64,000 bases of DNA from Sipunculus nudus (Eukaryota; Annelida; Sipuncula; Golfingiida; Sipunculidae): contig CM049306.1 of assembly GCA_026874595.1 (NCBI GenBank), positions 89,942,642 to 90,006,641 on the forward strand, written 5' to 3'. Both the position numbers and the translations under genes were made by a program. Below the pieces are notes generated by a model. The model was given only the letters and a program-made list of their open reading frames with translations. It was not told where the DNA came from and made no database searches. This document shows positions 77 to 63,940 of the stretch, one piece after another; the first letter of the stretch is position 1, and each line of letters opens with the position of its first letter.

Positions 77-219
77 CTGGCTAATTTCATATGAGCAGCT
101 GACCCTCACGTGATCATTTTCTCCACAGTTATGGGTCCCCATGCCATTGCTGAAGCAGTCCGAGATCCTAGCCTCGTTTCCAGTACACCTCACCTCATCC
201 AGCAAGAAGTCATCCGTCA
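77..219 (-). CDS. Gene A exon 5: C-terminal half of SRCR domain
   Basis: 143 bp, 2 nt + 47 codons, ending phase 0 at a GT donor. Shows LLDEVRCTGNEARISDC, THNCGENDHVRVSCSYE: the last four Cys of an SRCR domain. It directly follows the lectin exon; the 220-443 intron has no SRCR N-half. The rest of the gene is off the window. Confidence 0.85.
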
Positions 220-1257
220 CTGTTAAAACCCATCATACGTAACCGGAAGTAATAGAAAACTTATCTGAATAATTATATATAGAAATTCTAAATATTAATA
301 TGGGTGTTCACTACGAGAGAGCAAATTAGCAAAATGCCCTATTCCTTGTTTATTATATATAAAAAATAAAGAGCTCTAACAATGATATTAGAACAACCAT
401 GATTACTCTAATTTATATCTCTCTCTCACTTGTTCATACATACGTTTGTCTCTTGAGCAAAGCATTTGAAATGTCCAGGAGCATGGAACATCGAACCAGA
501 CGCCCGACGTGTCCACGGCGACGCATTGCTCCGGAGAGTGTTGGTTATCTGGCTCCCCGTCTTTTCCTTGCTGCCAGTTGTTAAAGGTCAACTAAAAAAA
601 ATCAGGACAATCAAAATACCCAACAGCAATCACAGTAAATGCCGGTCAAAGAGGGTTTTTAACATATAAACGACAGCTTTTTTCAGCGTTTCCGCTATTT
701 CGCTTGACATATAAACATATGTCATTCAGGCCTATTAAAAGCAAGATAGCCATTAGAACGTCCGCACGAAAAAACACGAGTTTTTTACTTTCAAAAGTGT
801 AAACTTACTCGATCCCTGGAACCATATTCAAATTCGCGATCTTTTCTGAGACAGTTTGCCAAAATAAATGAATGGTTCCTTATAAGCGTCTTGATAAAAT
901 CATTGGTGCCTGTATCCGGTATCCTTGCAAGGTCCCCACCAAGTTCTTGACATTTCTTGCGGGCGGCGGTTCTGTCGTATTGTCCGGGCACATATCGGAA
1001 ACACAAACTTCCAAACCCGCGCCAGAAAAGTGGACATGCTGTTAAAATAGAGTCAATCGAAAAATGTACATAATGCAGCTAGCATGCCATGTGCAGGTGT
1101 ACACATTTGTAGTCAGTGGCGTCAATTTGTCTTCAAGGATATGGGGATTACTTGCACCTTTACACACCCACACACCCACACACACCTTCACCATTACCCA
1201 CACACACCATCACACACATATAAATTCCAGCATTCCACAATAAAAGGTATATGCTAG

Positions 1258-1314
<57 letters not shown>

Positions 1315-4300
1315 TTATCATAAAATACACGGTTTTAAAAAAATCAGGTATTATGTTTCAAGTATATGTTAATTCTAAATTAGATTTAGACAATAAATTT
1401 TGTTTTCAACTTACAAGCGGACTTCTGATCAATCTCTATCGGTCCACTTGTGTGTCCCCCTGTGTCAGGTGAGGTACACGGAGTCCTTGTGTCCGCCTGC
1501 AGAATGTACATCTGGCCTGCGCACACGTATGATGACGTCATGTTTCTTGACACCTGTACCCCGTGTGTTATCTCTTCTGCCTCCACCAGTCGGAGGTCAC
1601 CCGGCATCGCCTTCAGAGGAAAAAAAAATAAAACAGGCATTTGGGCCTATTTACCTGTTAACGTTGAGCTACATTTAATTTACTTGTGATCGGTGGCTGA
1701 TTTAGGACACCGAAAGAATTATCTCCAGATTTCAAGATATAATTTCATTAAAAAATGTGGGACCCAGAAAATAAAAAGTGACCAAGGGTTCATGACGCTC
1801 AGCTGACTAGGAAAACATTCACAAAAGGATTTTTATCAATACCAAATTTTGTAGGTGGTATTCCCATTCAACTTAAGCACAACTCAGATGATATTGGTAA
1901 CAGAGACCTTATTTCAGGTTTCGAAGGAGATTTTTCATGGGCCTCCCTTGATGTCAAGTTAGAAGATTCCAGGTGCTATGGTTACAATTTGTGCCTTGCT
2001 AACAGGCAACCAGATCTTTGAAGGTCTCAAGATAATGCGTAAAAGATTGAAAAAAACTCCAGCTGGTGCAACCAGTCTGCAGGGACTGATAAAACACTCC
2101 ATAATGAATGTGCATGCAAAGAATTATGGTGATGAAATCATGAGTTGTTCAGAAACTTGAGGTTTTATAAAAATGTTCAATTATACTGAAGGGTACTTAT
2201 AAACCCTATAACTCAAAGGATATGGGCAACAGAGACCTAATTACAGATTTCCAAGGAGATTTTTTTTCATGGATGTCTCTGCATTTTAAATTAGAAGATT
2301 CTAGGTTGAGTGGTTACCATTTGTACCCTCTTTAAAGACAACTGCATCTTTATAGGTCTAAAAAATTGAGAAAAAAATGCATAAAAATTCGAATGAAAAA
2401 CCAGGTTGCACAACTAGTCTGCAGGAACTGATGAAATAATCAATCATGAATGTGCATGCAAAGAATCATGGTGATGAATTCATTAGTTGTTCAGGTACTG
2501 GAGATTTTGTATCATATTTTTAATTATTCGGGGGGGGGGGGGTTATCTTTGAGCCCCATAGCTCAGGTTATGTGTAACAGAGACTAATTTCAGATTTTCA
2601 TGGAGATTATTTATGGCCCTCCCTGGATGTCAAGTTAGAAGTTTCCAGGTCCAATGGTTACAATTTGTGCACTATTAACAGATGACAACATCTTTGGAGT
2701 TCTAAAAATAGAGAAAAAATGGGTAAAAAATTGAAAAAAAATCCAGTTGGCGACACCAGCCTGCCGGAACTATTAAAGACTTCATTATCAATATGCATGC
2801 AAAGAATCATGATGATAAATGCATTAGCTGTTCAGACAATTGAGCTTTTTTATCACATTTTTATTCTTCTGGGGTGTATTTTTGAGCCCCATAGCTCAGA
2901 GGGTATGAGTAACTGAGACCTAATTTCAGGTTATCGTGGAGATTTTTTATGGTACTCCCTTGATATATATTTAGAAGTTTCTTAGTCCAATGGTTACAAT
3001 TTGTGCCCTGTTAAAAGATGACCACATCTTTTAAAGTCTAAAAAACAGAGAAGAAAAACTACATAAAATAAAAAAAAAACAAGGTGGCGCCAGCCGTCTG
3101 CCGGAACTAATTAAAGACTCCATGATCAATATGCATGCAAAGAATCTTGATGATAAATGCATTAGGTGTTCAGACAATTGAGTTTTTTTATCACATTTTT
3201 ATTCTTCTGGGGGATATTTTTGAGCCCCATAGCGCAGAGGGTATGAGTACCTGAGACCTTATTTCAGGTTACCATGGAGATTTTCCTGTTACTCCCTGGA
3301 TGTTAAGTAAGAAGTTTCTAAGTCCAATGGTTACAATTTGTGCCCTGTTAACAGATGACCATATCTTTGAAAGTCTCAAAAATAGAGAAAAAAAAAACTA
3401 CGTAAAAAAAGAAAAATCAAGGTGGCGCCAGCAGTCTGCAGGAACTGATAAAATATTCCATGATCAATATCCATGTAAATAATCAAGGTTATATATATAA
3501 GTTTTTCAGATACTTGAGTTCGGATACTTTTTGTATCAAATTTTCCATTTTTTTTTTTTTTTTTTGGGGGGGGGGGGGGTACTTCAGAGCCCCATAGCTC
3601 AGAGGTTATGGGTAACAGAGACCTAATTTCAGGTTTCCAAAGAGACTTTTTATTGGCCTCCCTGCAAGTCAAGATAGAAGATTCTAGGTCAAGTCTTTAC
3701 GATTTATGTCTTGCTAACAGATGACTGCATCCTAGGAGGTCTCAATACTAGAGAAAAAAAATTTCGTAAAATCGAATTAATATAGGTGGCGCCACCAGAC
3801 TGCAGAAACTGATGAAACATTCCATAGTCAATATCCATGCAGATAATAATGGTGATCAATGCATTAGTTGTTCAGATACTTTAGCTTTTGTATCAAATTT
3901 TACATTATTCTGGGGGGGGGGGGTTCTTCGGACCACCATAGCTCTCAGAAGTTATGGGTAACAGAGACCAAATTTCAGGTTTCGAAAGAGACTTTTCATA
4001 GGCCTCTCAGTATGTTAAGTAAGAAGTTTCTAAGTCCAATGGTTTCAATATGTGCCCTGTTAACAGATGACCATATCTTTGAAAGTCTCAAAAATAGAGA
4101 AAAAACTACGTAAAATAAAAAGAAAAATCAAGGTGGCGCTAGCAGTCTGCAGGAACTGATAAAATATTCCATGATCAATATCCACGTAAAGAATCAAGGT
4201 GATATATACAAAAGTTGTTCAGATACTTGAGTTCAGATACTTTTTGTATCAAATTTTCCATTATTTCTTTTTTTTTGGGGGGGGGGGGGAGAGGGGGGTA

Positions 4301-18129: not shown

Positions 18130-18257
18130 CTGTGTGCATGTGACTTCATGAGGGGCATCAGGACAACTGAACTTGCCGTTCTGTCGGGATGTACAAGCCA
18201 CGCCCTCTTTTGATCCCCCGGCGCAAACAACTTCATACTTCACCAGCCTGTGAGTAC
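18130..18257 (-). CDS. Gene B: four-Cys linker exon
   Basis: 128 bp, 2 nt + 42 codons, same length as in gene C. VKYEVVCAGGSKEGVACT, GKFSCPDAPHEVTCTQ. The shared pattern is C-x-G-G, E-G-x-x-C, S-C-P and V-T-C-x-Q. I do not recognise a named domain. Confidence 0.75.
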
Positions 18258-18921: not shown

Positions 18922-19078
18922 CTGCTGTCATGCCGGATAACTTGTACATTACATGAGGGATGTTCCTCAGTTGCCGACACGCCACCTGGCTGTCACGGAG
19001 GTCAAAACTGTGGTCACAGACATAACGCCAGGTGTTAGAGTGGTACATCTGTGGGACGCCCTCGTAGGTCGTGGTGCC
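18922..19078 (-). CDS. Gene B: SRCR N-terminal half
   Basis: YEGVPQMYHSNTWRYVCD, FDLRDSQVACRQL: the first two Cys of an SRCR domain, placed after the C-half exon. The start uses the acceptor ending GAGCAG at 19079-19080, which keeps phase 0; another acceptor about 20 nt upstream would not. Ends phase 1 at GTAAAT. Confidence 0.8.
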
Positions 19079-19449: not shown

Positions 19450-19586
19450 CTGTTGCATCTTGTAGGAACACATGATTCTCCCGGCATCACTTTCTGTACA
19501 ATGGCGCACGTTCCCCCCGGTGCGGGGACAGTCAAAGATCCTGTTCTCGTTTCCAGAACATTCTACGTCATCGGTCCACAAACCCC
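19450..19586 (-). CDS. Gene B: SRCR C-terminal half
   Basis: 137 bp, 2 nt + 45 codons. GLWTDDVECSGNENRIFDC, VRHCTESDAGRIMCSYK: four SRCR Cys. The lectin exon is directly upstream in the gene. Confidence 0.85.
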
Positions 19587-20857: not shown

Positions 20858-20996
20858 GTTTCTTATAAGAGCACAAGACTCCTTGTATGTGGTTGCACTG
20901 GACGTCCTGCCAAGCACCATTGGTGTGCAGCCAGACACAGTCTCCTGGCGGGGCCTTGTTGTTGGGCTCTGTAGGGTACCAGTCAACGTAGCCTAC
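20858..20996 (-). CDS. Gene B: C-type lectin domain, C-terminal part
   Basis: 139 bp, phase 0 to 1, donor GTATGT. Shows VDWYPTEPNNKAPPGDCV, AWQDVQC and VLCSYKK: a CTLD long-loop region with EPN. No first-half lectin exon was seen upstream. Confidence 0.8.
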
Positions 20997-25400: not shown

Positions 25401-26148
25401 ACATAACTATCACTCATACATTATTTATTAAACTAAAGTAAAAAAAAATGCATCCTCATTCAGATTTATTCCGCTCATCATGCAGAGTGGGAAAACATTT
25501 GGAAGAACTAGTTCTGCAGAATTATTACAGAAAAATCTACAAATTCATGGTTTGAAGGTTATTGCGCCTCATTGTAGATGCAGTAGTTAATGGCCTGCAC
25601 CCGCAGAGACTTTATGACTTTAATCGGCTAGTATATGAAGTATAATTTTACACAGCAAATTTCATGGTAAAATAGAAGGTATATAATATACTCGATCATC
25701 AATGGATCATCGGTAGTTTTCCTCGAACAGGATTTCACAAAAAACTTCCTACCAGTAGTATTTGAACTTTATGCCGAGACAAATTTGGGTTATAATATAA
25801 TATTTGGTTCCATATGGTTACCGATTTTGACTTCAAAAGTAAACAGGCAATAATGAGAACATTTACACATAGTTTAACAATTTAACTGGGAAAATGAAGA
25901 AAAATATATATTTCCATTTAAAAAAAATCAGGTTTTATTTAAATCCACATTTACAATTTTTTTATCTGAGAACTGATTGAGTCTTTTAATAAAACAAAAG
26001 AGAAGGTATTTTTCTTTTCAGATTATTTAGAAGATAAGTAACCCTGTGGTTAAACTCCAATAAGGCTTGGTCATACATTCAATATGCAATTACTTGGGTA
26101 TCTGGTACCGGGTGAACTTAACCTTCATTGGGTACATCTTAATATTTC
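25401..26148. other. Intergenic sequence 3' of gene C
   Basis: AT-rich 3' flank. An AATAAA on the minus strand lies near 25930, but I cannot assign a poly(A) site. Confidence 0.4.
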
Positions 26149-26203
26149 TCATGTATCTGCAAGACTTGCTGGGCTTATCTTCTTCTTTCTAGTCAGAATG
26201 CCC
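26149..26203 (-). CDS. Gene C exon 14: basic tail exon
   Basis: Acceptor CTCCGCAG, then 1 nt + GILTRKKKISPASLADT and TGA. Phase fits the preceding exon; the basic stretch fits a stop-transfer signal. Reached only if the upstream frameshift is absent or bypassed. Confidence 0.65.
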
Positions 26204-32200: not shown

Positions 32201-35200
32201 GTCAAAAACATAGTATCCACAAAACTTCGTTTTGGCGGGTACAAAAATACAGGTGGCTCCACCAGTCTGCAGAAACTAATAAAAACACTTACAAACATCA
32301 ATATCCATGCAAAGAATCATGGTGATCTCCCCATTAGTTGTTCAGATACTTCAGCTTTTGAATCAAATCGTCCATTATTCTGAGGGATACTTCGGAGTCC
32401 TATAGCTTGAAGGATATGGGTAACAGAGACCTAATTTTAAGTTTCCACAGGCACTTTTCATGGGCCTTCTTGCATGACAAGAATGAAGATTCTAGGTCCA
32501 GTTGTTTCGATTTGTACCCTGTTGACAGATAACCACATCTTTAAAGGTATCAAAAAAAGAGAAAAAAAATCGTAAAAATTTGAAAAAAATAGAGGTGGCG
32601 CACCCAGTCTGCAGAAACTGATGGAACAGGTCATGATCAATATGTATGCCGAAAATCATGACCATCAGTGTTGTAGTTATTGAGATACTGCAGTTTTTGT
32701 ATCAAATTTTTCATTATTCTGGGGGTAATTTGGAGCCATACAGCTTAAAGAATATGGGTAACAGAGACCTAATTTCAGGTTTCCATAGAGACTTTTCATG
32801 GGTCTCCCTGTGTGTCAAGAATGAAGATTCTAGGTCCAGTTTTAATGATTTGTGCCCTGTTAACAGATGTTCATAACTTTAAAGGTCTCAAAAATAGAGA
32901 AAAAATTCGTAAAAAAAACCGAACAAATACAGGTGGTGCCACCAGTATGCAGAAACTGATGAAACACTCCATGATCAATATCCATGAAAACAATTATGGT
33001 GATCTCTGCATTAGTTGTTCAGATACTTCAGCTTTTGTATCAAATTTTCCATTATTCTGAGTTGTACTTTGGAGTGCCATAGCTCAAAGGATATGGGTAA
33101 CAGAGACCTAATTTCAGGTGTCCATGGAGACTTATGATGGGTCTCCCTGTGTGTCAACAATGAAGATTCTAGGTCCAGTCCTTACGATTTGTACCCTGTT
33201 GACAGATAACTACATCCTGAAAGGTCTCGAAAATAGAGAAAAAAATTGTGAAAATTTGAAAAAATACAGGTGGCACCACCAGTCTGCATGAACTGATGAA
33301 ACACCTCTTGATCAATATGTATGCCAAAAATCATGACCCTCAGTGTTGTAGTTATTGAGATGTTGCAGTTTGTTTTTAACAAATTTTCCATTATTCTGGG
33401 GGGTTATTGGGAGCCCCCCATTGGTCAAAGGATATGGGTAACAGAGGCCTTATTTCAGGTTTCCATGCAGACTTTTTATGGACCTCTCAGTGTGTCAAGA
33501 ATGAAGATTCTAGGTCCAGTCTTTATGATTTGTGCCCTGTAAACAGCTGTTCACATTTTTAAATTCGTAAAAAATCGAAAAATTCAGGTGGCGCCACCAG
33601 TCTGCAGGAAGTGATGGAACATCTCATGATCAATACGTATGCCAAAAATCATGACCATCAGTCCAGTAGTTAATGAGATATTGAAGTTTTTGTATGAAAT
33701 TTTTGACTTTTCTGGGGGGTACTTTGGGGCCCCATAGCTCGAAGGATATGGGTAACAGAGATCTAATTTATGGTTTCCACGGAGACTTTTAATAGGTTTC
33801 TCAGTGTGTCGAGAATGAAGATTCTAGATCCACCGGTTACGATTTGTGCCAGGTTAACAGATGACAGCATCTTTAAACGTCTCAAAAATAGAGGAAAAAA
33901 TTGTAAAAAAATCGAAAAATACAGGTGGCGCCACCAGTCTGAAGGAACTTATGGAACATCTCATGATCAATATGTATGCCAAAAATCATGACCATCAGTG
34001 TTGTAGTTATTGAGATATTGAAGTTTTTGTATGAAATTTTTTACTATTCTGGGGGGTACTTTGGGGCCCCATAGCTCGAAGGATATGGGTAACAGAGACC
34101 TAATTTCTGGTTTCCAAGGAGATTTTTCATGGACCTCTCAGTGTATCAAGAATTAAGATTCTAGGTCTAGGCTTTACGATTTGTGCCTTGTTAACAGATG
34201 TTCACGTTTTTAAAGGTCTCAAAAATAGAGAAAAAAAATTGTAAAAAAATCGAAAAATACAGGTGGCGCCACCAGTCTGCAGGAAGTGATGGAACATCTC
34301 ATGATCAATATGTATGCCAAAAATCATGACCATCAGTCAAGTAGTTAATGAGATATTGAAGTTTTTGTATGAAATTTTTGACTTTTCTGGGGGGTACTTT
34401 GGGGCCCCATAGCTCGAAGGATATGGGTAACAAAGACCTAATTTCTGGTTTCCAAGGAGATTTTTCATGGACCTCTCAGAATCCCAAGTTACAAGGTTCT
34501 AGGTTCAGCGGTTACGATTTGTGCCTGGTTAACGGACGGACAGACGGACAGACGGACAAAGAGTGATCGCTATAGCTCAGATGACTTTCAGTCAGCTGAG
34601 CTAAAAAAATCTGAACTCATAATAAAAACTCACATTGCTCAGCACCTCCTTTGAATAAGTAGATTATAATAGAAGAATTTGCGATAGAAACATCATCTAT
34701 AAAATACCAACTCCTGCTGTGGATTTTCCAAAGCTGACGATATTAAAGCACCTTGTGTTGAACCTTCACCAAAACCGGTTTTCAATTGTATTGTCAATAC
34801 ATGTGAGATGCTTGTTGTGCACCCAGTTTTATATTTGTGTATTAACAAAAAGCGAGATGGTTTTCTTGTAGATGCATGATTTGTCAACGAAAAAGCATTT
34901 TATTTTGGAACAAAATGAAAAATGAACATTGAAAATTGCGTACTTTTTTTACAACGTGACCCGTAATACCCATCCTGACATCGTCCTCTGGAGCACCTGC
35001 CGTTAATGACGTCACACGGGGTCTCTGCGCATTTACCGCACTTCTCTGAGCAGTTGCTTCCCCAGGTACCATCCTGACATACTGACGGTCCCAGAATAAC
35101 ATATAATTTCGTTTTCAGAAAATTTTAATCATGCAGCATGTCTTGATATATTTTTGGTGGATTATTTTGGTCACAAAATTTGTCTAGACTCTGGATCTTC

Positions 35201-38200
35201 AAACGGGGAAAGATCATTTTTACATTACAACTTTGTCTGTATAATTGCCTTAATTTATTGTTATGCTGACTTAGGTCAGCCCAGAGAAAACGAATGAACT
35301 ACAGTTTATAGACCTTACCTTAAACAGATCTACTATATGATAGATGAAAGTATTCATATGGGCAGACGTACTCGTATATGACAAACTAGGAATAATAGAA
35401 GTAGAGATTTTGACCATTGCCAAATACTAACTCAATGTCATATTTTACAATTACAAAATATATATTTACACATTAAGAAAAATATATTTACACATTAAGA
35501 AATGAAATGTAAATGATATAATTTATCGATGGATCGATGTAGTTGATTTATCCATCTCTAAGCATTATTTGCGAATAATACATACACATACACACATCAC
35601 ACTTGCTTCCTTGGTATCCTGGTTTACATCCTCCGTTTGGACACTGGCCGTCACGTGACGAGCACCTGCCTCGGGCACACTGACCACACACACCACTGCA
35701 GTCATCACCGTAATGGCCCCGGTCACACACATTTGTCTTAAATAAAATAATATCAAACGTTTAAAGAAGCAGCATCTAGTTGCATAAAAATCAACTGTAT
35801 CAATCACGTCCATGTTTTTGTTCATTTTATTTAGTTAACATCTTCTTGGTAACCTTGTATCTGAATAATTAGACGTGGCAGTTCAGCCTGAAAGCTATTT
35901 TCATAACCTGGTGTGGCAGCAGGATAAGTGGCTTAGGTATAATACGTCGTCAATTTTAACGGCTATTTCGTCGTTTTCAAGTGCGTTTTGTATGAGCCAT
36001 GACGTAGCTGAACGCGAGGTATTGCAGTGTGTGTAAACAACAGATTACTTGCGTCCCACGCATAGACATACCACACCCTTCCATTATTTGGCCAATTGAG
36101 CAACTGGGGTCAAAAGAGGTTAGGCGAAGGGGTTATTTCTTCGATCTCAAGTGTTTCATGACAGCTTCGTATATTAGTAAATCTTTACCCAACTAGATTT
36201 ATCTTCTTTTAACAATCATTAGAAATTAATGAATTAACGGATCGGATACCTTGTTGTTACATCATTATTTTATTGGTAATCTATACACATAACACACTAC
36301 GTTCATTGCTAATACATGAAATAAAATGGAATATAGAAATTTCCAGTTTCATATTTGGTTCTATATTTATAACTACTCAACTTGTAGAAAATTTGCAGTG
36401 AATGTAAGATTGCATATGTCCATGTGTAAACGTAATCAAGTGAAAATACGCAAACAAATTTGTTACCTGGCTGCAAGTCACATCTCTCGGAATTCTGGGA
36501 CAGCTGTGCCTTCCTGACTGTTGTGGTTTACATGTCGCGCCCTCTGTGGGTCCGCCCGAACACCCGGCGTAATATTGGGTGATGTTTATGGGACCTGTAA
36601 TGAATTACAAGTATGCCTTGACTTATTATAATAGGAGGTTTTGCCATTCATTAACAGCAAGTTATTCTATAAAGGCAAATGACGCGAGGTTCATCAACGT
36701 CATATCTGTCTGTGAAAGAAGAAAGAACATTTTCGGGAGGTTCGACGTGTACGCGTTTGTCGGAAGAAAGCTATCATCCTTCCGGATGATACTCGCCGGT
36801 TACACAGCCGCCGCCGCGTTCGATTCTGGAGAACTCCTCTGAGACTCCTTAAATGGGCTTTCGGTGGGTCTGATGAGAACTATTGTCTAACAAAGATTGA
36901 TGGCGCCACCTTCAACCCTTTTTGCGTAGGGTCCGTCTGTGCGTCTTACTTAAGGGATAATAGCACATGGCTCAGGAGAGGTTGTATGGGCTAAAATTTT
37001 GCACGTCCATAGATTTGGGATACCTATATCTCCTACTCGGGACTGGTGGCTCCATCTGCACTCGCCTTTGCGTGGCGTCCTTAAGTGCTTTGACTGAAAT
37101 CACTCTTATCTCAGGAGCGGTTCAATATATTGAATTTTCATTTAATATTTAATTTTCCTTAAATCAATTCTTACCCAGTATTTATAATATCATCAATGTC
37201 TTTACTACATATAATATATTCAGTTAGTGTATCGTGGCGTAGAAGCCAAGGTACATTGTGATTCTGTACCCACAATCCCCATGTGCAAACGGCAGGATTA
37301 TAAGTTTTTTCGGCTCAGAGTGGAAGGATGCATTTCTAATGACTATAGGTATCGATACCCACAGAGAAGGGGGATCTTATCTGGTTACTTTAAACAAATG
37401 GTCGAACGTACACCACTTTAAAGTGCCGGTCATTTATCAGATGTATTATCTTACGTGACTGTAGTTCTCCGAGTGTGTATAGGGTGTGGGGCAACGTGCT
37501 CAGCTGACGACAAGCCACTTGGCTGTCACGAAAGTCGAAGTTGTCATCACACAAGTAACGCCAGGTGTTAGAGTGGTACACCTGTAGCAGGCCTTCATAG
37601 GTCATTGTGGCTTGGAAACCGGGCTGTTTACCAGCAGACGTCTAAAAATTAATCGAAAAGCATGATTATTAATAAATATATTAGAAATAACGATGAAACA
37701 TAACCTAAACATGAAATATTTCCCCAAAGTCTGCATCATTCCTCTGTGACGGATATGAATTAGTGAAAAAAAAATGTTAGAAAATGTCAGATTGATAGAT
37801 GTTACAGTTGATCCTCGTATGTTTACTCTTCCAGATTATTTTCTACAGCATTTCTGAATATTAGAATGTATTAAAACATTGATCTTTCTTTGAGATTTTA
37901 CGAGTTGAAATGTAGCTTTAGAAAACTTTAACTTAAGGTCGTCTAAAGTTTCCATTATGTATATACCAGACACCTTGTTAGTTTCGTAAGAACAGCTGAT
38001 CCTGACGGCATCTTCTTCTGCACAGTCATGTATTCCCCAGCCGTTGTGAAGGCAATCCGAGATTCGAGCCTCGGTCCCAGTGCATTCCAAGTCATCAAGC
38101 CAGAAGCCATCTAGAAACGCAAAAAGCATCACATTAATGCGAATAAATATAATTACATGCCATATTTATATGGAATACAATACATGATATATTATTTTTT

Positions 38201-39332
38201 TTTATGCAGTTCGTTCTGTTTGTTGTGCTTCATTTATGTATTTAGAGACATTACAAATCTTTGCTAGTTTATATTTTATTCTAGTTGGCCCAGCCCAGCC
38301 AAGCCTTTGGATAGAGCCTGAATCCTTCAACATTACATTGATCCAGAAAAGTTAAAACTAATCATGAATATAACATATCAGACACCTTTTGCTAAATGTG
38401 TTACTAAGCTTGAAGGACAAACAAACAAACTCTAATAAACGAACTCTAATAAACTCCACAGAAACTCTCATTAAATGACTGATTTTGGTCGTGTCCGCTT
38501 CAATTTAAGTTTCAAGGTCAAGCCCGTAGTGACAAATGGCTCTCCAACTGAGTTAACGTGAATAAAAATGCTGAAAATAATTGGAATATATTTGGTTGGT
38601 CGAGGCTATAAAAATACCTCAGTTTCTCCCAGTTTAAAACTTAACGTCCATGAAAAGAGAGAGAAAATAGTACTATAGGTGTATAGCACGAAAATCATTT
38701 CATAAAAATAATCATGATATTACACTGATTACTTATATGTAAAAATAAACTAGACGTTCCTTAACCAATCCCTCATAAGCATCAAAATAAAGTTTATCGT
38801 TTAAAATACAAAGCCTGATTGTTATGCTCCATATTGGATGTGTATACCTTTGCTTTCTGAGCAGACGTGACAATATTGAATGTGTATACCTTTAATTTTG
38901 AGCAGACGAGACAATATTGGATGTGTATACCTTTGCTTTTTGAGCAGACGTGACAATATTGGATGTGTATACCTTTGCTTTTTGAGCAGACGTGACAATA
39001 TTGGATGTGTATACCTTTGCTTTTTGAGCAGACGAGGCAATACTTCCAGTAACATGGCACATCGTACCAGACACCATTCCGTTCAATGGCAATGCACTCT
39101 TCCGGAGGAAATCTGTTGTCCGGTTCTCCTGGCTTGAAGTTTGTGTAAGTTAACTGCAACAGTCACAGAAAAAGTTCTCAGTAACCCGAATTGACTGTGT
39201 AACGCTATAAAGTTTAAAAATGATCAAAACACGCCTGCCTGTGTAAGCATTTGGTAATACATGAATCTATCCAATACGTCTGTCTAAATGCAATGCATAT
39301 TTGTGAATCATCTTGTAAATATAATCTTTTTG

Positions 39333-39382
<50 letters not shown>

Positions 39383-42300
39383 ACTATTAGGGGATGGTCA
39401 AAATGTAGCATTCATTGGAATTAAAAAATTTGTTTAGCTTTTTTGATAAGGGAGGCTTTTGAAAATACAACGACATGGTGCTGTTGCAGCATTAGAAAAG
39501 GGCCATAGCAGCTCCTTTCCATTTTTCTGCAGACAAAAGTACAGGGGAGAAGTCGGGTGAATATACTTCAACATAAAAAAAACATTCTTTCAGAATTCCA
39601 TGATAGCATGGGCAGATAAAGTTGCAGCTTATGTTAATAATCGGCCACAGCTTCAAAGGCTCAGAATGTATAATTGCCTCCGAAAATGAGGGTAAGCATT
39701 CATTCTCGTTCATGTGCGTTTGTGTGTGTGCGTTTCTTTACAATATAACTCACGCAATCCTAAAAGGAATCTCATGAAATTTTATGGGAAGTTTGGGAAT
39801 GGGCCAATGAATAACCGATTAGGTGTTAAGTGTAGATCCGGACGAGGATCAAAATCCAGGAATGTCATCAAAGAATATTCACTAAGGTACAGTCACATAT
39901 GCACAAATGAGCTTACGGAATGACCTGATGAATGCTGATTTGTATTTCTAACTTCATTGGAAGAAATAATTTTAGAACATTCCTTCAATTTTTGACACAT
40001 ATGATTCTATTTAATGTAATCCCAGACTTGTCCCTTCGAAGTAATTAGCTGAAACAACATACGGGATCCTTTGGTCCATATTCACATCGACGTCGGCTGT
40101 TATTCCGGCAGTTTGCTAAAACATAGCTAGAGTTCCTAATTATGGTGAGGAGGAAGTTGTTAGTGTCCTCATCAGGTATCTTCGCAAGGTCACCTCCAAG
40201 TTCCTGACACTTTCGCCGACCGGGTTTCCAGGGGTATTGACCCTCCACGTACTGGTAACAGTTACCGTTGAACTCAATCCAAGGAGCTGGACATTCTGGG
40301 TAAAGATATTTAAAAGTCTGGCTAAGCAAGATAAGAACAATGTGAATCTGATTTGTTATCCATTGTTGAACACGCGTTTAAAAATAAGTCGTGATTTCAA
40401 AATATCTAAAAGGTGACAAATGTGAAATACTTTATATTGTTGCATTTAAACGTAAAAAGTATATTTTTCATGGAAAGATATATGACACAAATATCAATAA
40501 AGATAGCGAATGTTGCAATAGTAATTAATGGTACTTTTAGACTTTCGAATATTAAACTGATATACTCCCCTCCACCTCCATTAACATTGCTTTTATATTA
40601 TTGCTCGACAAGATTTCATTAATGATATTCAGATGACCTGTGAACTTTTGTTCAAGTTCTGGTGATCGACTGGTGTGCCCCTCTGAGTCGGGTGAGGTAC
40701 ACAACTGCCTCGTTTTGGGCTGCAGGACGTCCATGTGACCGCTGCACACGTAGGATGACGTCATGTTTTCTGACACCTGCACGCCGTATGTTGTCTCCTC
40801 GACCTGAACGAGCCGCAGATCACCTGAATTCAGCTTTGAATCAGACCAGAAATAAATGGGAAGGTATGGATGGCTAATGACATTTATATGGCTTTTGACA
40901 TTAATTTGTGGAAATATAAGAAAAATTCCGTTCACATTGTTATTCCTTTAAAACGTCATTTTGCAGGTCGTTGATTTACATGGAGGATCTTTAATATTTT
41001 GATAACATGGTTAAGACAACTGGTGTAAACGGGTACATTCATGTTTGTTATATTCGTTAATTTATTTAATACAAATGCTTGTTAAAAACAATTGTGTGCT
41101 ATAACTGAAAGCTACAATAAATTAAGAGGTGTGTTTTTTACTTGTTACGTCTTAAGTAATTCTAAATATAATTGTAATAATTGTAGAAAGCATTCTAATA
41201 ATTTCTATTTATCTATTGAAATGTCCTTATATAATATATATATATATATATGTGTAATTCTCAGTATAGGGGTCAATTTCGAGTTCCCAAACAGAGGGAA
41301 AAAAGTTGTTGCAAAATTCATTTTTTCTTCTTTCCATTTCAAGCGGGATATATGAAAGGTCAAAAACTCCCATCAGCAGCGCACTTTTATCCATACTTGC
41401 TTTTTTACCACAATAGAAGAATAGCAGTCTTTAGTCAGCAAGTCAACTCCGTTACAGCAGTTTATTTTTTTAAAATCACAAAATAATGCGGTAAAAAAAG
41501 AAGAATGAATGTGTCACGTATGTAGATTTTACAAAAGTATGGTACACAATCATCATAAACACTAGAGTTTGATATGAAAATTATTCCTGACATTTTTATT
41601 AATGCTAAATAATAAGGTGATAGTGCACACAAATGTTTGACCCATAAAGTGCATTGAAGAGAACTTGCTAAAAGAGACAGGTAAACGCTCAATATTACTG
41701 ATCTCCTACAAATTGTCCATCATTTGACAATAGTTTGTAACGTTATCTTCTGCAAAGTCTGGAGGAAAACGGTCGAATATAGTTTTTGGCTAAAATGTTG
41801 CGCTGACTGGAATGTAACGGAGTTGATAACGCACTAAATTATTAAGATATTCTTACCTAAACTTTTAACACATTTGAACAAAAAGTAAACAGATAACTAT
41901 CAAGTTGTATCATGCTAAAATATATCGACACAAGTTACCCTGACCGGTAAACAAAAGTTTACCATATAAAGTTTATTTTAAACACATAAAGTCAATTAAT
42001 GTAAATTACTGCTAAATTGAACAACTCGGCTCGGGATTGTTGCGAGAAAGAACTTGCTAAATGCCTACCTACTAGGTATTTAACCATTTCAATATGAATT
42101 CAATAAAAACATATTTCTCCTTTAATGACAATAAAATACTTGAGAAAGTAAAGAAATGCCAACATTATCTAAATCCAGGAAAATATTGTTACAATTAAGA
42201 GCTGTAACGGAGTTGATCAATTTTCAACAAAAATGATAGTCTTGTTACCTTATAGAGCTGTGCTATATATGCAACTGGCATTAAAGGCTAGTGTCATCTA

Positions 42301-56737: not shown

Positions 56738-59700
56738 GTATGTATTTTTAACCAACATATAGTAACGTTACCAAGATTATTCGATAACAATGTATTCTCT
56801 TTGTTCATTATATTAACTTACATCTTGCCCATTCTCCTCACTATTTACTTGATAAATCTCCATTCCTTTGTGTCTGCATGCCCCTCCTTACGTTAACTAC
56901 CATTATATAAATTATTCAGGACTTCGAGCATTAAAATCTCTACCGTTGTATATGTGACAGATAAGTTAACAGCAAGGGGAACCCCGTACTCGCGTCTAGA
57001 TTCTATCCTCAAGAATTTGTGAATCCTCTTTTTTGTGATATTTCCATGATTTCAAAACCATTAAACCAGCTTCCATGTGGACCAGGGGTAGAGCACAGGG
57101 CTCTAAGACAGTCAAAGTCCTTGACATCGTGAGTTCGAATCTCAGCTAACGTTGTGAGATTTCGCAGGGTTGGCACCTACACAGGGGGTGGGGTCTAAAG
57201 GAGAGACTGTGCCCAACAGTCGTGTTTCACTCACAAACGAGTTTGCCTTTCGGGGTTCCTCGGTGTCAAGCAGGCGTTAACCTCCACCTTAATAACCTTT
57301 ATAAAAAGAATTACAATATAATCTTAATAATATATAATACACTTAACTGATCTTATTTACGTTATCTTATTTATTTTAAAAAATCACAGTAATAATTTAG
57401 AATATATTATGATATTTAAGCACAAATACAAATATTTGAAATATAAGAAGTGTATTATTTAAAGTGAAAGCAAGTTATCAATTCAATTGTAAGAAAGGTT
57501 ATAATTTTCCTATGGTTTACTTGGTTAAAATTCTTATAATCACCTTGATTGAAATGCCCCATGTGGGTATTGACAGTTTGAATCTGGTGATCTGCGGCTG
57601 TTAGAGGTAGAAGAGAAGACATACGGGGTACAGGTGTCAGAAAATATGACGTCAAGCTACGTGTGTCATGGTAACCTGCATGTACTCCAGCCGGGCGCCA
57701 GGGAGTCTTGTGATACGCCAGACCCAGATGGACACACCACTCAGCCTCCGGGACTAGACCAAAACGTAGCAAGTAAATTAATGTTAATATAATATAAAAT
57801 GCGATTTCAATGGCTTTGTTGAATCGATACCCCCCCCCCCCCCCCCCCAAACGGCAAGAATCAATAAAACAAGAAATAAAATTCAATGAAAGTAGCAGAA
57901 TAAAAAGATCACGTTAAAAGGTTTTCCCTACAACCAAAATCTTCTCAAAAACGTTCCAGACAGTTGATAGACAGCTCGTGACAGTTTGAGAATAATAGCT
58001 GGCCCCTTAAGGAAAAATTCTGTACATTTCTATGACTGATATCGAGATTAATGTTTTTTCACATGAATATCGGCATTTTATAAATAATCTCTTGGCGTTA
58101 ATCGATATTAACATTTACCTAATTGCAAGTATTGGGTTATTATAATGTTTATTTAGTATCTCCATGATTACACAGGTATATTCTGTTCTTTTTCATTTAC
58201 ATCTTCTTGCTTTGTCATCCCAAAGTCGATGAATACATTGTATGTTAAGGAGAACTTTGTAGGTTGCCATGAAAGCTGGACTGCCTTCAGGAATACATGC
58301 TTTAGATATATAGCAAACCAACGGACTTGGCATGAAGGTCGCAGAATATGTCAAAACCTTGGAGGTGACCTCGCTAGAATACCTGACAAGGCAACAAACA
58401 TGTTTATTTTGTCAACAATAAAATCCACATCTTTCTTTCTGGCCAACCGCCTCCGAGACCACCGGACTTGGGAATATGGGCCGAATGAACGGGTAAATTT
58501 TTAGGACTTTAAAACGTTATCAAAACGCCATCCGTATCATAAAGGCTGCGGCTTATAATGGTTTCTTTATGCTGCATCGATCAGTCCGTGGACCCTTACC
58601 GCATTAATAAGAATTTGACAGAATGGTCAATCTGTCTTGAATATTATTTCAAGGTTTATATGGCAGTTAGGGTAAGGACCGTTGGGAGTACAGGGTAATA
58701 TATAAATATAACTTTTATTGTTTAAATTTTAAATTTTTAAATTGTTATTTTTAGCAAAAGAACGAGCTATAACTCACATATGGCAGCAAATTTATATTTA
58801 TATATAATTTTATCTTAAAATATGCAGAAATATCTCCAGGTGTTTTTTAAAACATATTTATCATCTTTGAAATTCTTTGACAACTATAAACATTCTTTGT
58901 TTTAGATGGCCTGCAACTGCTTTTTTCAAATAAGATACAGAATAACAAATATGATTTTGACGAAATTAAGACACTAACTTAGGTGTGTTCTTTATATTAT
59001 GGGCTTATTGTGTTCATGTTTAAGCGACAGAATGGCCCACAGATAAAGTACCGTAACTGGAATTATATTTATTCATAACTGAATTTCTGTTTGATTCGGA
59101 AGAGGTCTATATCTTTCCGTAAACAATTATCATATTTAAAAGTTGGGCCACAGAAAAATTAGCCGCAAAATATTGGTTCAGTTAACAGGGGAGTATTTTG
59201 CAACATTTTTTAAAGCTAAATCTTCATGAAAACCTGCAAAAACATAGGCTCAGAATATTTATGAAAAGAATAAATCATTCGTTTTAAAATTAAGACAATG
59301 GAATCACATATTTCACAAAATTGACAATTACCATTGTGAACAAATATGGAAGCTGATAAAGAACTACAAGAATCATGGATGCCATCCTTTGTTGTCATAT
59401 TTCAATAGTTTGACAAGTGTCAATCGGATAATCACCCAAGATTTATTTACTGAAAGTTAGAAAACATCAGTAAAATTGAGTTTTAATCTGTTTTTTTTTT
59501 CACTTAACTGGCAATTTTAGCTGTCATGCATTCATTAAAATCATCGCACTTTTGACAAATTTGCTAGTGCACACGATCTTTGATTTCTCCGGTTAAAAAG
59601 GTGAGGCAACAGTGAGGGGGTTTCCACTCTATGTGAATCCATAAGTGGTGAACAGTTGATTCTACTCAGGTTCAAACACGTGACGTGCACAATAGCGGAA

Positions 59701-62700
59701 AAGTAGTTGTGGACCTTGAAATAAAATACATAAATTCATGGATGAATTCATGTACGTTTCTGACACCTTGAGCGTCGTATAAGGTCTAAAAAATAGAAAA
59801 TAAAAAATATGTTACATATAATTAAAAGGAAAATTACAACTTGACGTTCCGTCAGGACATAACACTAGAGGTTTGTCAGACCAGGGATCCGCTTGCAGTT
59901 CAACTTCGGAAAATAAAAAAAACGGATACTTTCCTACCCTAATTGGCTCAAATTAACTACTTGAGTTCTTGCAAGCTCACCTTATATGCGTTTAGTAAGA
60001 GTGTAGCCATTTTTACATCTCTTTCAAATACATTTGCGGAGGTTATGTGTTCAGCCCTGTTTGTCTTTCGCTTTGTTTGTCTAATAATATCTCCAAAACA
60101 TAACAATAATTTCCAAGGTTGACGTATAGGCCATAGGCCATTGGAGAATGAATTATCTTTGGGTAGACTTATCAAAGTTTCGTGATGACCTAGTTTGTAA
60201 TAATATCATTACAGCTACGCTTCACCAATTGGGGACCCGGCGAACCGAACAACATCAATGTTAGACTAGTTGAATACTGTGTTGCAATGAACATTCAAGG
60301 CCAATGGTTCGACGTCGTATGCGACAGACGACACGGATTTGTTTGTTCCAAGAAAAAATGTATGTACATATACTGTAAATACATAGTCGCTTAAACTTTA
60401 TTTTAATTAAACCTTGCACTAACTTAAACAGCAGAAAATCACTTTTCTTCTCCTCTGTGGACCATTTATAATTAAAGAGATGTTTAAGGAGAGGGAAGCA
60501 TAAGTATAACATGGGTCTGATAAAATATTAAGTTTTTATCAGACAGCGTAATAACAAGCAAGGGTTTATCGCCTAGTACTGATATTTTATTATCCCCTCG
60601 CAAAGAGATTCCAGGAGGGGATATAATAATACCTCCGTTCGTTTGTTGCTCCGTCTGTCTTTCAAGTCCGAATAAGGTATAACAAACAGAAAATAAAAAA
60701 GATGTTACATATAATTAAAAGGAAAAATTTTAACTTGACGTTCCGTTAGGACATAACACTAGAGGTTTGTCGGACCAGGGATCCGCTTGCAGTTCAACTT
60801 CGGGAAATAAAAAAAAAACGGATACTTTCCTATCCTAATTGGCTCAAATTAACTACTTGAGTTCTTGCAAGCTCACCTTATATGCGTTTAGGGTTTATCG
60901 CCTAGTACTGATATATTATTATCCCCTCGCAAAGAAGTTCCAGGAGGGGATATAATAATAATACCTCCGTTCGTTTGTTGCTCCGTCTGTCTGTCAAGTC
61001 CGTACCGAACTTTTCGTCTTGCACATAAGGCTCACCTACTGACTAATGAAGAACCCTATAGGTTTTGAGGTCACGGGGTCAAAGGTTAAGGCCAAAGGAC
61101 CCACTTCTTAAAGAAGCTTGTGGACGCATTTTAAGCGAAACCGTTTGACCAAAACGTTTCCACTTTGACATAAGGCTCACCCAACTACGGATGATGAACC
61201 CTGTCGAGTTTGAGGTCATAAGGTCAAAGGTCAAAGACCTGCCACTGTGTTAAACACCCAGTATAATTATGCCATGAATCCCATTCGAGGGGATGCTCCA
61301 ATTTGCCATGCCCTTGTTGAGCTTATCACACTATTTGTGATATTTTGTATATCCGGCACAATTTTTCCTCAATCCTTTGATCATGACAATTGAGTGATCG
61401 CTTGTGACACATTATGCATCTAACATGAAACTCACTCACAGTGTTATCAGTTACACTAACATGATCACAGTATGTATAGATATAACACGATACCACATGA
61501 ACTGGGGTATTACCGTTTTGTCGCGTTCAACCGGTAGGTCGATCGGCTTCGTTTTCACGGGACGAGTTTTCTATGGGTCGATTTGAAATGGGCGATGTTG
61601 ATTCGCAACATTTCTGATAAATGACACTGCGATCGACCTTTCGCAAAATAATGTAAAATGTCTAAAGATACATGGGAAATACGGCAAAGGACCCCCCTTG
61701 CGACAAACTTCAAGCCAAAACAGGTATTTTCGAAATGTGGCCTCAGAGGAGTTGCGGGACAAGTGCCACATCTTCAGTTATGTTATAGACAAACATATTA
61801 CCCCCTCTTGCGTCAGGACAGGTCGTTGGGACTTTGACCAGGTTGGGGCGGAGTAAGTTTTTTTCAGGATGTGAGTAGACATGGACAGAGATACCTGGTG
61901 GTCCGAGTTGCTCATATTAAATAGTCTCTGACAACTCGCGATACGATATCGACTTCATGGAATAATGTCCTATTTCTCAGGTATTATGAGAACTATGGAT
62001 AATTATCCAGTTTGGCGAAAAGTTGCACTGTTCCAAATTAATTTCAAGACCAAAATTACTCTCATTGGCTACAAAGAAATTATGATTGAGAGCCTTCATC
62101 GTCAATTGTAATACAGATCATGTTTTCTCATTTTGTTTACACTTGCAATAAGGTGGTCTTATTCGATACGGATATGATATGACTAGGTTTGCATCCAACG
62201 AAGTTTTCTTTACCCGATTGGTTAATTCATTAAATGAGCCAATGCACACATTCCTGTATGCTACATTTTATGTATATTTTCGTGCGATCAACGAAAGCAC
62301 AATACCCCCCCCCCCCCTCCAATATACACATAGCCTACAGACACACGTGACTCAAAATATTGATGATGCTGGTAAAATAGTTGACAGGTATTCATCTTTG
62401 TTATTTTGCATCGCTTAAAAGACATACTGACGCCAGTCACGCATGTTATTTACCCGATACAGGGCCCCTGCCCAACGCAATACGAAATATTGCTGGTTCA
62501 TATCAGTCAGACACGGGACCTGTACGTTCATGCTTACTGACGCACCTTCCGGAATGATGCAGCAAACATTGCGCGTCTTATGACGTCACTGTTCCCGGTG
62601 ACCTGCCCACCCTTAATGAAATGAATTACGAGTCGCGTGACGTCACTGGACTCTGTAACACACAGCCCATGCATGAAACTGACAAAAGCTAGGATCCCGG

Positions 62701-63940
62701 CTGTGTGAAGGTGCCGACGCATGTACACTTTCCAACTGTTACATTTTAGTACTGTATGAGACATGAGTGAATTTACCTCGCTGATTATCATATTTTAATA
62801 ACATAGGTGGTCCTTCAATAAGAATAATAGGAATCGGCCATTCGGAAAACCTCGGGCGAATCCGTTGGCTTCTAGCCCTGGATGTTTCTATGCCCCAATG
62901 ATACAACACCAATTATTGTGGAGTTCGCCCTAATCCACCGTGTGCCATTTTTACTGACTCATCTAAGAAAAGATCACTGTTTCCACAAAGAATACATTGA
63001 TTCGCCAAAATAATGCGTATTGTGTGGACTTGATATGTTGCAAAACATCAAGGATGACCAGGTTCCGACAGTAATTTGACTAGACACTTCAGTTTATGAC
63101 AAATGCCTCATACATCGCCAACTGGGATGGGCTTCCTGGCGTGAACTGTATTCTCGTGCGGTCCAAATCAGTATTCATGGGATTTTCCACACTGTTTCTT
63201 TGATACGTGTTGTCTTATAACTTATAGGTAGTATGTGTTTGGATTGGCAGGACATGTACGCAAAATTAAATCGTTTTTGCTCTTACAAAGCGCACCTCGG
63301 ATGTGCGGTTGACCTGAAATGGCCTTGACCTTGCATGAATACTTTCCATGGCGGCCCCCATTGTACATCCGAGGATAGAAGTGTTCCGAATGAGGAACCG
63401 GCTTGTTAGGTATTGCCTTCCTATTGGGTATGGGGCAGCCGTATCGTCCTTCGTACCCACGGGCTCAGGGCCGATACGCTGGTGACAGTCGGGGGGGGGG
63501 GGGGGGGGGGGGCAAATGTAGACCTAACTTTATCTTTGTGTTACTATTGCCCGGGGAACCGTGTTTTACAATCGATGTTATAATGCTTCATTCATTTAGC
63601 TGCAAGGTTTAGATTTACTTAAAAATGGGGATACAAACTTATGGAACTAAAGAAATAAATTTTAAAAAAGTACATTTTGTACCTGCAAATATGGTCTCCT
63701 CTCACAACGGTTCCATCGCCCTTTATTTTAAATCTGATAACACTTTTTTGTGACAAGATTTATCAAAGCTTCCAGTGATATAGCAGAAGATGATTATTTG
63801 CAGACGAATTTTGGCTTGATGACGTAGAATGCTCTGGGAACGAGGCAAAACTTAAAGCCTGTTCCCACAGTGCTTGGGGAACACACAACTGTTCGGCAAA
63901 CGACGCTGTGAAGATCAGCTGCTCTTATGAAAGAGAACAG
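56684..63940 (+). CDS. Gene E: 5' part of CTLD-SRCR-EGF receptor (3' end beyond window)
   Basis: Five plus-strand exons: 56684-56737 (signal peptide), 57577-57772 (exon a), 58263-58492 and 60215-60359 (C-type lectin domain), 63804-63940 (SRCR C-half). They total 762 nt, exactly 254 codons, with no stop and consistent phases; the last exon ends at GTGAGT, so the gene continues to the right. It is the only copy on the plus strand, and it starts where gene D loses its 5' half. The lectin loop reads EPNN. Introns contain a SINE, a poly-C run and a duplicated block around the second lectin exon. Confidence 0.78.
57060..57320 (+). repeat. tRNA-derived SINE
   Basis: Box A-like GGGGTAGAGCACAGGG and box B-like GTGAGTTCGAATCTCAGC about 45 nt apart, then a body with TTTCACTCACAAACGAG, CTTTCGGGGTTCCTCGG and 3' end GGCGTTAACCTCCACC. 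Lies in the first intron of gene E. It is not a functional tRNA: no foldable acceptor stem is seen. Confidence 0.7.
57577..57772 (+). CDS. Gene E exon 2: conserved 'exon a' domain
   Basis: 196 bp, phase 0 to 1, donor GTAAAT. FESGDLRLLEVEEKTYGVQ, ENMTSSYVCHG, SCDTPDPDGHT. Closest in motif to gene C exon a. Confidence 0.8.
57831..57848. repeat. Poly-C run
   Basis: About 18 C, just downstream of exon a. Likely polymorphic. Confidence 0.9.
58263..58492 (+). CDS. Gene E exon 3: C-type lectin domain, N-terminal part
   Basis: 230 bp, 2 nt + 76 codons, donor GTAAAT. CHESWTAFRNTCFRYIANQ, RRICQNLGGDLARIPDKAT, FFLANRL (Arg where gene A has Cys). Confidence 0.9.
58505..59780. other. Gene E intron within the lectin domain
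   Basis: AT-rich; no exon or clear repeat before the duplicated block at 59.78 kb. Confidence 0.5.
59782..59993. repeat. ~210-bp duplicated block, copy 1
   Basis: From AAATAAAAAATATGTTACAT through AACTTGACGTTCCGT to CACCTTATATGCGTTTAG. Nearly identical to 60683-60891, on the other side of the second lectin exon. Confidence 0.9.
60215..60359 (+). CDS. Gene E exon 4: C-type lectin domain, C-terminal part
   Basis: 145 bp, phase 0 to 1, donor GTATGT. RFTNWGPGEPNNINVRLVEY, CVAMNIQGQWFDVVC, FVCSKKK. EPN at the sugar-loop position. Confidence 0.88.
60566..61293. mobile_element. Element with ATCCCCTCG ends, interrupted by duplicated block copy 2
   Basis: A ~110-bp stretch (TTATCGCCTAGTACTGATAT ... 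TTTGTTGCTCCGTCTGTC) occurs at 60568-60670 and again at 60894-61000; between them lies copy 2 of the 210-bp block (60683-60891). TTATCCCCTCGCAAAG on the left and an inverted CGAGGGGAT near 61280 look like element ends. The interior has AAGGCTCACC and GAGGTCA...GGTCAAAGG repeats. Confidence 0.6.
61294..63803. other. Gene E intron before SRCR C-half
   Basis: No SRCR N-half or other exon seen. C-run at 62307-62317 and a G run of about 22 nt at 63491-63512. Confidence 0.55.
63804..63940 (+). CDS. Gene E exon 5: SRCR C-terminal half
   Basis: 137 bp, 2 nt + 45 codons, acceptor TTTGCAG, donor GTGAGT. EFWLDDVECSGNEAKLKAC, THNCSANDAVKISCSYE. The same length as in genes B and C. Confidence 0.88.

Follow-up and report, generated by a model that had tools for sequence, protein, structure and literature searches.

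The window, meaning the whole 64,000-nucleotide stretch of DNA analyzed here (G000:C1:89942642-90006641 of a 1.43-Gb assembly), harbors four genes, A, B, C and E, in which exons for a C-type lectin domain are combined with exons that encode, or probably encode, halves of an SRCR domain. These half exons are labeled N1, C1, N2 and C2, and the usual SRCR cysteines are referred to as Cys C2, C3 and C5 to C8; in ordinary SRCR domains, disulfides join Cys C2 to C7, C3 to C8 and C5 to C6. The exons are as follows.

Gene C, 40638..40833, minus strand: N1 (exon 1), probable worn SRCR N-half; 196 nt, phase 0 in/1 out; acceptor placed by eye, lying 10 nt 5' of the phase 1 acceptor used in the frame join
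Gene C, 40063..40295, minus strand: lectin exon 1, first part of the C-type lectin domain; phase 1 in/0 out
Gene C, 39015..39153, minus strand: lectin exon 2; phase 0 in/1 out
Gene C, 37974..38110, minus strand: C1, conserved SRCR C-half; 137 nt, phase 1 in/0 out, Cys spacing 9-9-9
Gene C, 37455..37641, minus strand: N2, conserved SRCR N-half; 187 nt, phase 0 in/1 out
Gene C, 36467..36594, minus strand: C2 (earlier the "four-Cys exon"), worn SRCR C-half; 128 nt, phase 1 in/0 out, Cys spacing 9-9-8
Gene B, 20858..20996, minus strand: lectin exon 2; neither N1 nor lectin exon 1 was detected upstream
Gene B, 19450..19586, minus strand: C1
Gene B, 18922..19078, minus strand: N2; acceptor placed by eye (the script chose 19081)
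Gene B, 18130..18257, minus strand: C2; N2+C2 match Pfam SRCR
Gene A, 1415..1610, minus strand: N1; 196 nt, acceptor placed by eye
Gene A, 809..1038, minus strand: lectin exon 1
Gene A, 444..591, minus strand: lectin exon 2
Gene A, 77..213, minus strand: C1; start placed by eye (the script chose 219)
Gene A, outside the window, at about 6045-5871 and 5007-4882 of L045: N2 and C2
Gene E, 57577..57772, plus strand: N1; 196 nt, acceptor placed by eye
Gene E, 58263..58492, plus strand: lectin exon 1
Gene E, 60215..60359, plus strand: lectin exon 2; acceptor placed by eye (the script chose 60194)
Gene E, 63804..63940, plus strand: C1
Gene E, outside the window, at 6330-6500 and 6830-6957 of L046: N2 and C2

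In gene C, the six exons from exon 1 to the four-Cys exon form one open frame, with borders placed by eye. Downstream of these lie EGF-like exons, recognized by pattern (the Pfam match of one has an E value of 0.1), and a hydrophobic exon is found further on, at about 26.5 kb. Gene D (window 49847-51977, minus strand) also comprises EGF-like exons and a hydrophobic exon, and no SRCR or lectin exon was found around it on the minus strand between 41 and 64 kb. Arrays of a related repeat of 336 to 338 bp occur near the genes, at window positions 1883-3485, 32243-34533 and 54945-55908. Collections of viral, bacterial/archaeal and phage sequences yielded no relatives, and no match was obtained in Rfam.

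The initial annotation described an SRCR domain encoded in permuted order, with its C-terminal half first, and the order of these two exons was borne out. On the minus strand of gene C, the C-half (38110-37974) precedes the N-half (37641-37455), both with AG/GT borders, and in gene B, C1 (19586-19450) is likewise followed by N2 (approximately 19078-18922). The exon preceding the C-half is the lectin exon in genes A, B, C and E, as had been noted, and a profile search of the intervening intron in these four genes detected no N-half, on which basis an overlooked N-half at that position was rejected. The in-phase joining of the N-half to the four-Cys exon in gene C, at a phase 1 junction, was also confirmed. 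The N-halves of genes A and E lie just beyond the window (in L045 and L046, respectively), and both follow the C-half. Beyond these genes, the family comprises at least two dozen loci in its own genome (150 of 344 candidates were scored), and the order C1 then N2 was found in 19 of the 20 genome regions fetched, most of which were chosen because a genome search had shown such neighbors. Exon lengths of approximately 137, 187 and 128 nucleotides recur across loci; for loci other than gene C, borders were placed by a script which tried only splice sites in the expected phases.

What did not survive is the accompanying assertion that gene C has no second C-half. The four-Cys exon which follows N2 (36594-36467) is itself a second, worn SRCR C-half, designated C2, as judged from Pfam matches, shuffling, profile comparison, intron phases and cysteine spacing. 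When N2 and C2 are joined in their natural order, a near full-length match to Pfam SRCR (PF00530, 100 positions) is obtained in genes C (positions 5-99; 44.8 bits versus 33.6 for N2 alone), B (2-99; 43.6 versus 31.3, N2 being two residues shorter in the N2-alone scan), A (4-99; 44.8 versus 37.2) and E (4-99; 45.9 versus 37.2) and in L039 (2-99; 51.4 versus 38.8), such that the addition of C2 contributes 7.6 to 12.6 bits in these five genes; in L042 the joined pair matches positions 6-91 with 39.8 bits. An EGF exon in place of C2 adds nothing (33.5 bits). On a small CD163-based profile, the score of C2 was reached by 0 of 1,000 free shuffles in both gene C and gene B, and by 1 and 6 of 1,000, respectively, when the cysteines were held fixed. 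A profile of 14 C2 copies, from which L037, L038 and L042 (odd spacing) and L044 (partial) were left out, matched a profile of 21 C1 C-halves with a P value of 3.3e-4, a match equaled by 1 of 300 column shuffles and by 4 of 300 with fixed cysteines. Furthermore, C2 of gene C shares the phases of C1 (1 in/0 out) and nearly the same cysteine spacing (9-9-8 versus 9-9-9). The stretch between Cys C3 and Cys C5 across the N2-C2 join, at 29 residues versus 30 in CD163 domain 2, is that of an ordinary SRCR, which is counted against the explanation preferred below. Taken alone, C2 exons were recognized as SRCR by Pfam in 0 of 16 cases, nor did a PDB search with them return an SRCR. The C2 exons of L037, L038 and L042 have cysteine spacings of 9-10-6 or 9-8-6, outside the ordinary SRCR range.

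The exon preceding the lectin exons (40833-40638 in gene C) is probably the missing SRCR N-half, N1. Early tests of this assignment were weak, both for N1 alone and for N1+C1, which scored at chance on the CD163-based profile, and Pfam recognized no SRCR in any of the 13 N1 exons taken individually. Against the PDB, a profile of N1 returned no SRCR and eight matches, all of them to complement-control (sushi) modules, with a best E value of 0.051. A profile of N1+C1 from 10 genes, with the lectin omitted, aligned from positions 1-3 to at least position 101 with 19 of the 24 PDB SRCR sequences which it matched at an E value of 0.001 or better, its start coinciding with the RLV start of the SRCR; the R-L-x9-G start of N1 and both of its cysteines also fit an SRCR N-half. 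Compared with the N2 profile, the N1 profile gave a P value of 0.0078 (4 of 300 shuffles were as good, or 6 of 300 with fixed cysteines), and with the C1 and C2 profiles the P values were 0.24 and 0.11, respectively; L051 to L053 stand outside these profile comparisons and the cation-ligand counts given below. Over four CD163 domains, picked because they align end to end with the N1+C1 profile, shuffled N1 columns equaled the summed score in 2 of 300 trials, or 5 of 300 with fixed cysteines, and the N1 columns added just 0.8, 0.3, 0.1 and 6.4 bits to the score of C1 alone.

Joined N1+C1 sequences match Pfam SRCR at positions 2-99 of 100 in L042, 11-100 in gene C and 18-99 in L036, and partially in gene E (54-100), gene A (34-100) and L041 (54-100), the gain from N1 being little in the last three. 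In gene C the gain is 4.2 bits, with an E value of 8.9e-10 versus 1.3e-9 for the best of 20 cysteine-fixed shuffles scored, out of 30 made. Mixed N1+C2 joins match SRCR in one of six cases, a result which is counted against the explanation preferred below. If the acceptor 10 nucleotides upstream is used, N1 measures 196 nucleotides in genes A, C and E and has the phases of an N-half (0 in/1 out); by eye, such an upstream acceptor is also present in L036 and L050, and gene C, L035 and L036 possess a phase 1 acceptor for N1 as well. The identification of N1 as an N-half is moderately supported: it becomes fairly convincing only when the 10 to 13 paralogs are considered together, and the gain in bits is still small. 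N2 of gene C (37583-37641, minus strand) is without the RLVGG start of an ordinary SRCR, and the worn N1 retains RLV. If the N1 exon is indeed an N-half, the gene C transcript would hold 12 SRCR-type cysteines, rather than each of the usual six once as initially described.

The lectin module which lies between N1 and C1 is complete in gene C, where its two exons match Pfam Lectin_C (PF00059) at positions 2-107 of 107 with 43.3 bits; the module is of phase 1-1, and N1 exits and C1 enters in phase 1. N1 was identified in 10 of the 19 regions with the C1-then-N2 order, giving 13 N1-bearing genes with genes A, C and E of the window added, and a lectin is present in 10 of these 13 and absent from three. 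No lectin exon was seen in the gene's three frames between N1 and C1 of L036 (4846-6153, minus strand; 1,308 bases) and L050 (5211-5998, plus strand; 788 bases), which are sisters in the tree, nor in L032, where the end of the N1 exon is ambiguous. A 42-bp tandem repeat of 5.1 copies (window 38831-39042) starts in the end of lectin exon 2 of gene C, and its copies carry the splice donor of that exon. As 42 bp is in frame and the frame is open through several copies, the lectin tail could vary by units of 14 residues. In gene B, neither N1 nor lectin exon 1 was found upstream of lectin exon 2 (window 20997-26400), and this gene would be a truncated or decayed copy.

A C2 match was obtained in 17 of the 19 regions with the C1-then-N2 order (one of them partial), and in these genome-region counts some missed exons fall near region ends. 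In L047 (G000:C1:90017500-90027499), beyond the window, all six exon types are present, in the order N1, lectin, lectin, C1, N2 and C2. An order inverted with respect to the parent fold, with C1 ahead of N2, thus characterizes genes B and C as well as 19 of the 20 regions, N1 and C2 also being present in the family, and, as far as N1 is an N-half, both copies expected of permutation by duplication are represented: C2 matches C1, N1 matches N2, and both C exons of gene C are of phase 1-0. We are confident that the gene reads N1-[lectin]-C1-N2-C2, which would represent a tandem pair of SRCR domains, the N-half and the C-half of each being carried by separate exons.

Which halves fold together was approached through the cation site of the SRCR domain. 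In SALSA/DMBT1, the side chains of this site are D1019, D1020, D1023 and D1026 in the first half and D1058, D1059, N1081 and E1086 in the second (PMC7043408). Equivalent sites were placed by counting from the cysteines (Cys C2 +1, +2, +5 and +8; Cys C5 -4 and -3; Cys C7 -1 and +4). Among 21 loci, C1 keeps an acid (or N at 1081) at 1058, 1059, 1081 and 1086 in 21, 18, 16 and 14, respectively, and N2 keeps an acid at 1019, 1020, 1023 and 1026 in 20, 11, 14 and 20. The corresponding counts are 1, 0, 4 and 3 of 13 for N1 at 1019, 1020, 1023 and 1026, and 0, 2, 0 and 1 of 15 for C2 at 1058, 1059, 1081 and 1086 (L037, L038 and L042 being left out for their odd spacing). Cysteine spacing is distributed in a similar manner: it is 9-9-9 in 23 of 23 C1 exons and 12 in 22 of 23 N2 exons, C1 and N2 together having the usual six-Cys SRCR spacing, and it is relaxed in the outer halves, where C2 has 9-9-8 in 11 of 18 and N1 has 14 in 9 of 13 (L051 and L052 enter these counts for C1 and N2 only). 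When the 10 genes which possess N1, C1, N2 and C2 were compared pairwise, C1 and N2 each proved more similar than either outer half in 37 of 45 pairs.

Two of the ligand positions also change together. In all nine loci with R or I at 1020 of N2, position 1086 of C1 is Q or K, and in all 15 with D (12 loci), N (two) or H (one) at the former site, the latter is D or E; the three loci which retain D at 1086 alongside N or H at 1020 are counted against the covariation. In CD163, compared by eye, D at 1020 occurs with E at 1086 in four of four domains, and other residues at 1020 occur with E in one of four (domain 8, which is without Cys C7, being left out). Taken with the pattern among the paralogs, this suggests a link between the two sites inside a single fold. 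The eight R loci constitute one side of a single branch (support 54/98), with L053 unplaced, and the covariation may consequently reflect a single event. When N2 and C1 are placed in natural order, the rotated sequence scores 61 to 79 bits with Pfam in five genes, a value which merely sums two good halves. The ends of an SRCR domain meet in one beta-sheet (PMC7043408), such that C1 could feasibly be joined to N2.

Permutation by duplication is understood to proceed through a tandem copy and the subsequent loss of redundant outer parts, and working intermediates with both copies are predicted (PMC3320104). It is proposed that an SRCR domain was duplicated in tandem to give N1-C1-N2-C2, with every domain split over two exons, and that the outer halves, N1 and C2, would have become worn, retaining their cysteines and losing strict spacing and most of the cation ligands. 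The inner halves, C1 and N2, with ligands and spacing retained, would constitute the working SRCR unit, and the phase 1-1 lectin module would have been placed between N1 and C1 in most copies with N1. Ligands and rigid spacing concentrated mainly in C1 and N2 are the pattern expected if C1+N2 work and N1+C2 are redundant. The reading we favor, in which we place slightly better than even confidence, combines the tandem order with a fold formed jointly by C1 and N2, a circular permutation of the SRCR generated through duplication. Its further extension, namely, that this is a natural SRCR permutation caught half-way, with the tandem duplicate whole in the gene, C1+N2 as the cation-binding fold, the outer halves drifting and the lectin accepted in a now useless N1-C1 joint, is one we judge evenly balanced. 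The first proposal, of one closed SRCR in permuted form which predates the gene duplications, is most likely wrong at the level of the gene, where the order is tandem, yet the idea of a permuted fold has itself gained support from the ligands, cysteine spacing and conservation of C1 and N2.

The main rival, which we consider possible if rather doubtful, dispenses with permutation: N1 would pair with C1 around a lectin held in the middle loop of a first SRCR, N2 would pair with C2 in a second, and exon shuffling would have put the phase 1-1 lectin into the phase 1 intron of the first. This ordinary pairing needs no unusual fold and accounts for much of the above, including the phases (a phase 1-1 lectin between N1 and C1 junctions of phase 1, and N2 meeting C2 in phase 1 in gene C), the lectin-free L036 and L050, with N1+C1 of L036 matching most of the SRCR model, the N1+C1 profile which spans solved SRCRs end to end, the nearly full-length Pfam matches of N2+C2 and the near-ordinary Cys C3-C5 length across N2-C2 in gene C, as if that pair still folds. 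What it leaves unexplained is the concentration of ligands and rigid spacing mainly in C1 and N2 and their absence, for the most part, from the supposed partners, as well as the joint change of N2 1020 and C1 1086.

It is improbable, in our estimation, that the pre-lectin exon is a non-SRCR element, perhaps a sushi-like fragment, with C1 an orphan or paired with N2 and C2 a spare. The exclusively sushi PDB matches, the silence of Pfam in 13 of 13 N1 exons and the small contribution of N1 columns to CD163 scores are in keeping with this reading, whereas the R-L-x9-G start and both cysteines, the end-to-end N1+C1 alignment, the shuffles and the near-complete match in L042 argue against it. A single permuted SRCR (C1 then N2) formed by exon movement in a gene without other SRCR halves is highly improbable: among the gene C halves, only C1 and N2 are recognized by Pfam when taken individually, yet C2 belongs to the C-halves and N1 probably to the N-halves, and the N2+C2 matches contradict this candidate; it was rejected once C2 had been found.

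The pairing of halves, the splicing and the function are inferred here. Given the lectin domain, the downstream EGF-like exons and the hydrophobic exon beyond them, the product is likely to be a cell-surface recognition receptor, probably a membrane protein. SRCR cation sites bind anionic ligands (PMC7043408), and on the reading we favor, such ligands would bind at the cation site of the C1+N2 unit, which would sit next to the lectin and on EGF-like exons. If this reading is true, the family, with two dozen or more loci in a single genome, would be at an intermediate stage, and the sequence of steps in a permutation could be worked out and tested; should the halves instead pair in the ordinary way, these genes would still present an SRCR domain interrupted midway by a lectin domain, with lectin-free copies for comparison. 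In the literature collection searched, and as judged from titles and the opening lines of abstracts, no work on a circularly permuted SRCR, or on a C-type lectin exon inserted in an SRCR, was found. We know of no such layout of swapped SRCR halves with a nested lectin.

The nearest parallel in mechanism is provided by saposin/swaposin and similar cases, in which a tandem copy came first and the loss of outer parts followed (PMC3320104); in contrast to these, the outer halves are still encoded here, and the permuted fold is a proposal. With mollusc MEGF-type receptors, such as the MEGF/galactose-binding RPTPs of Biomphalaria SudRes1, the present genes share an arrangement in clusters of paralogs that encode single-pass receptors carrying EGF-like repeats, whereas SRCR is absent from the main text of that report (PMC12297450). 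Invertebrate SRCR expansions likewise include large tandem families, and sponge SRCR domains are split over exons, although the available portion of that account describes neither a permuted order nor a nested lectin (PMC10855680). As for SRCR domains in general (PF00530), such as those of CD163, DMBT1/SALSA and MARCO, the good halves are recognized as members, with the cysteine spacing of C1 and N2 and most cation ligands as in solved SRCRs; unlike in those proteins, the good halves stand here in the order C then N, the outer halves are worn, and a lectin module lies between N1 and C1.
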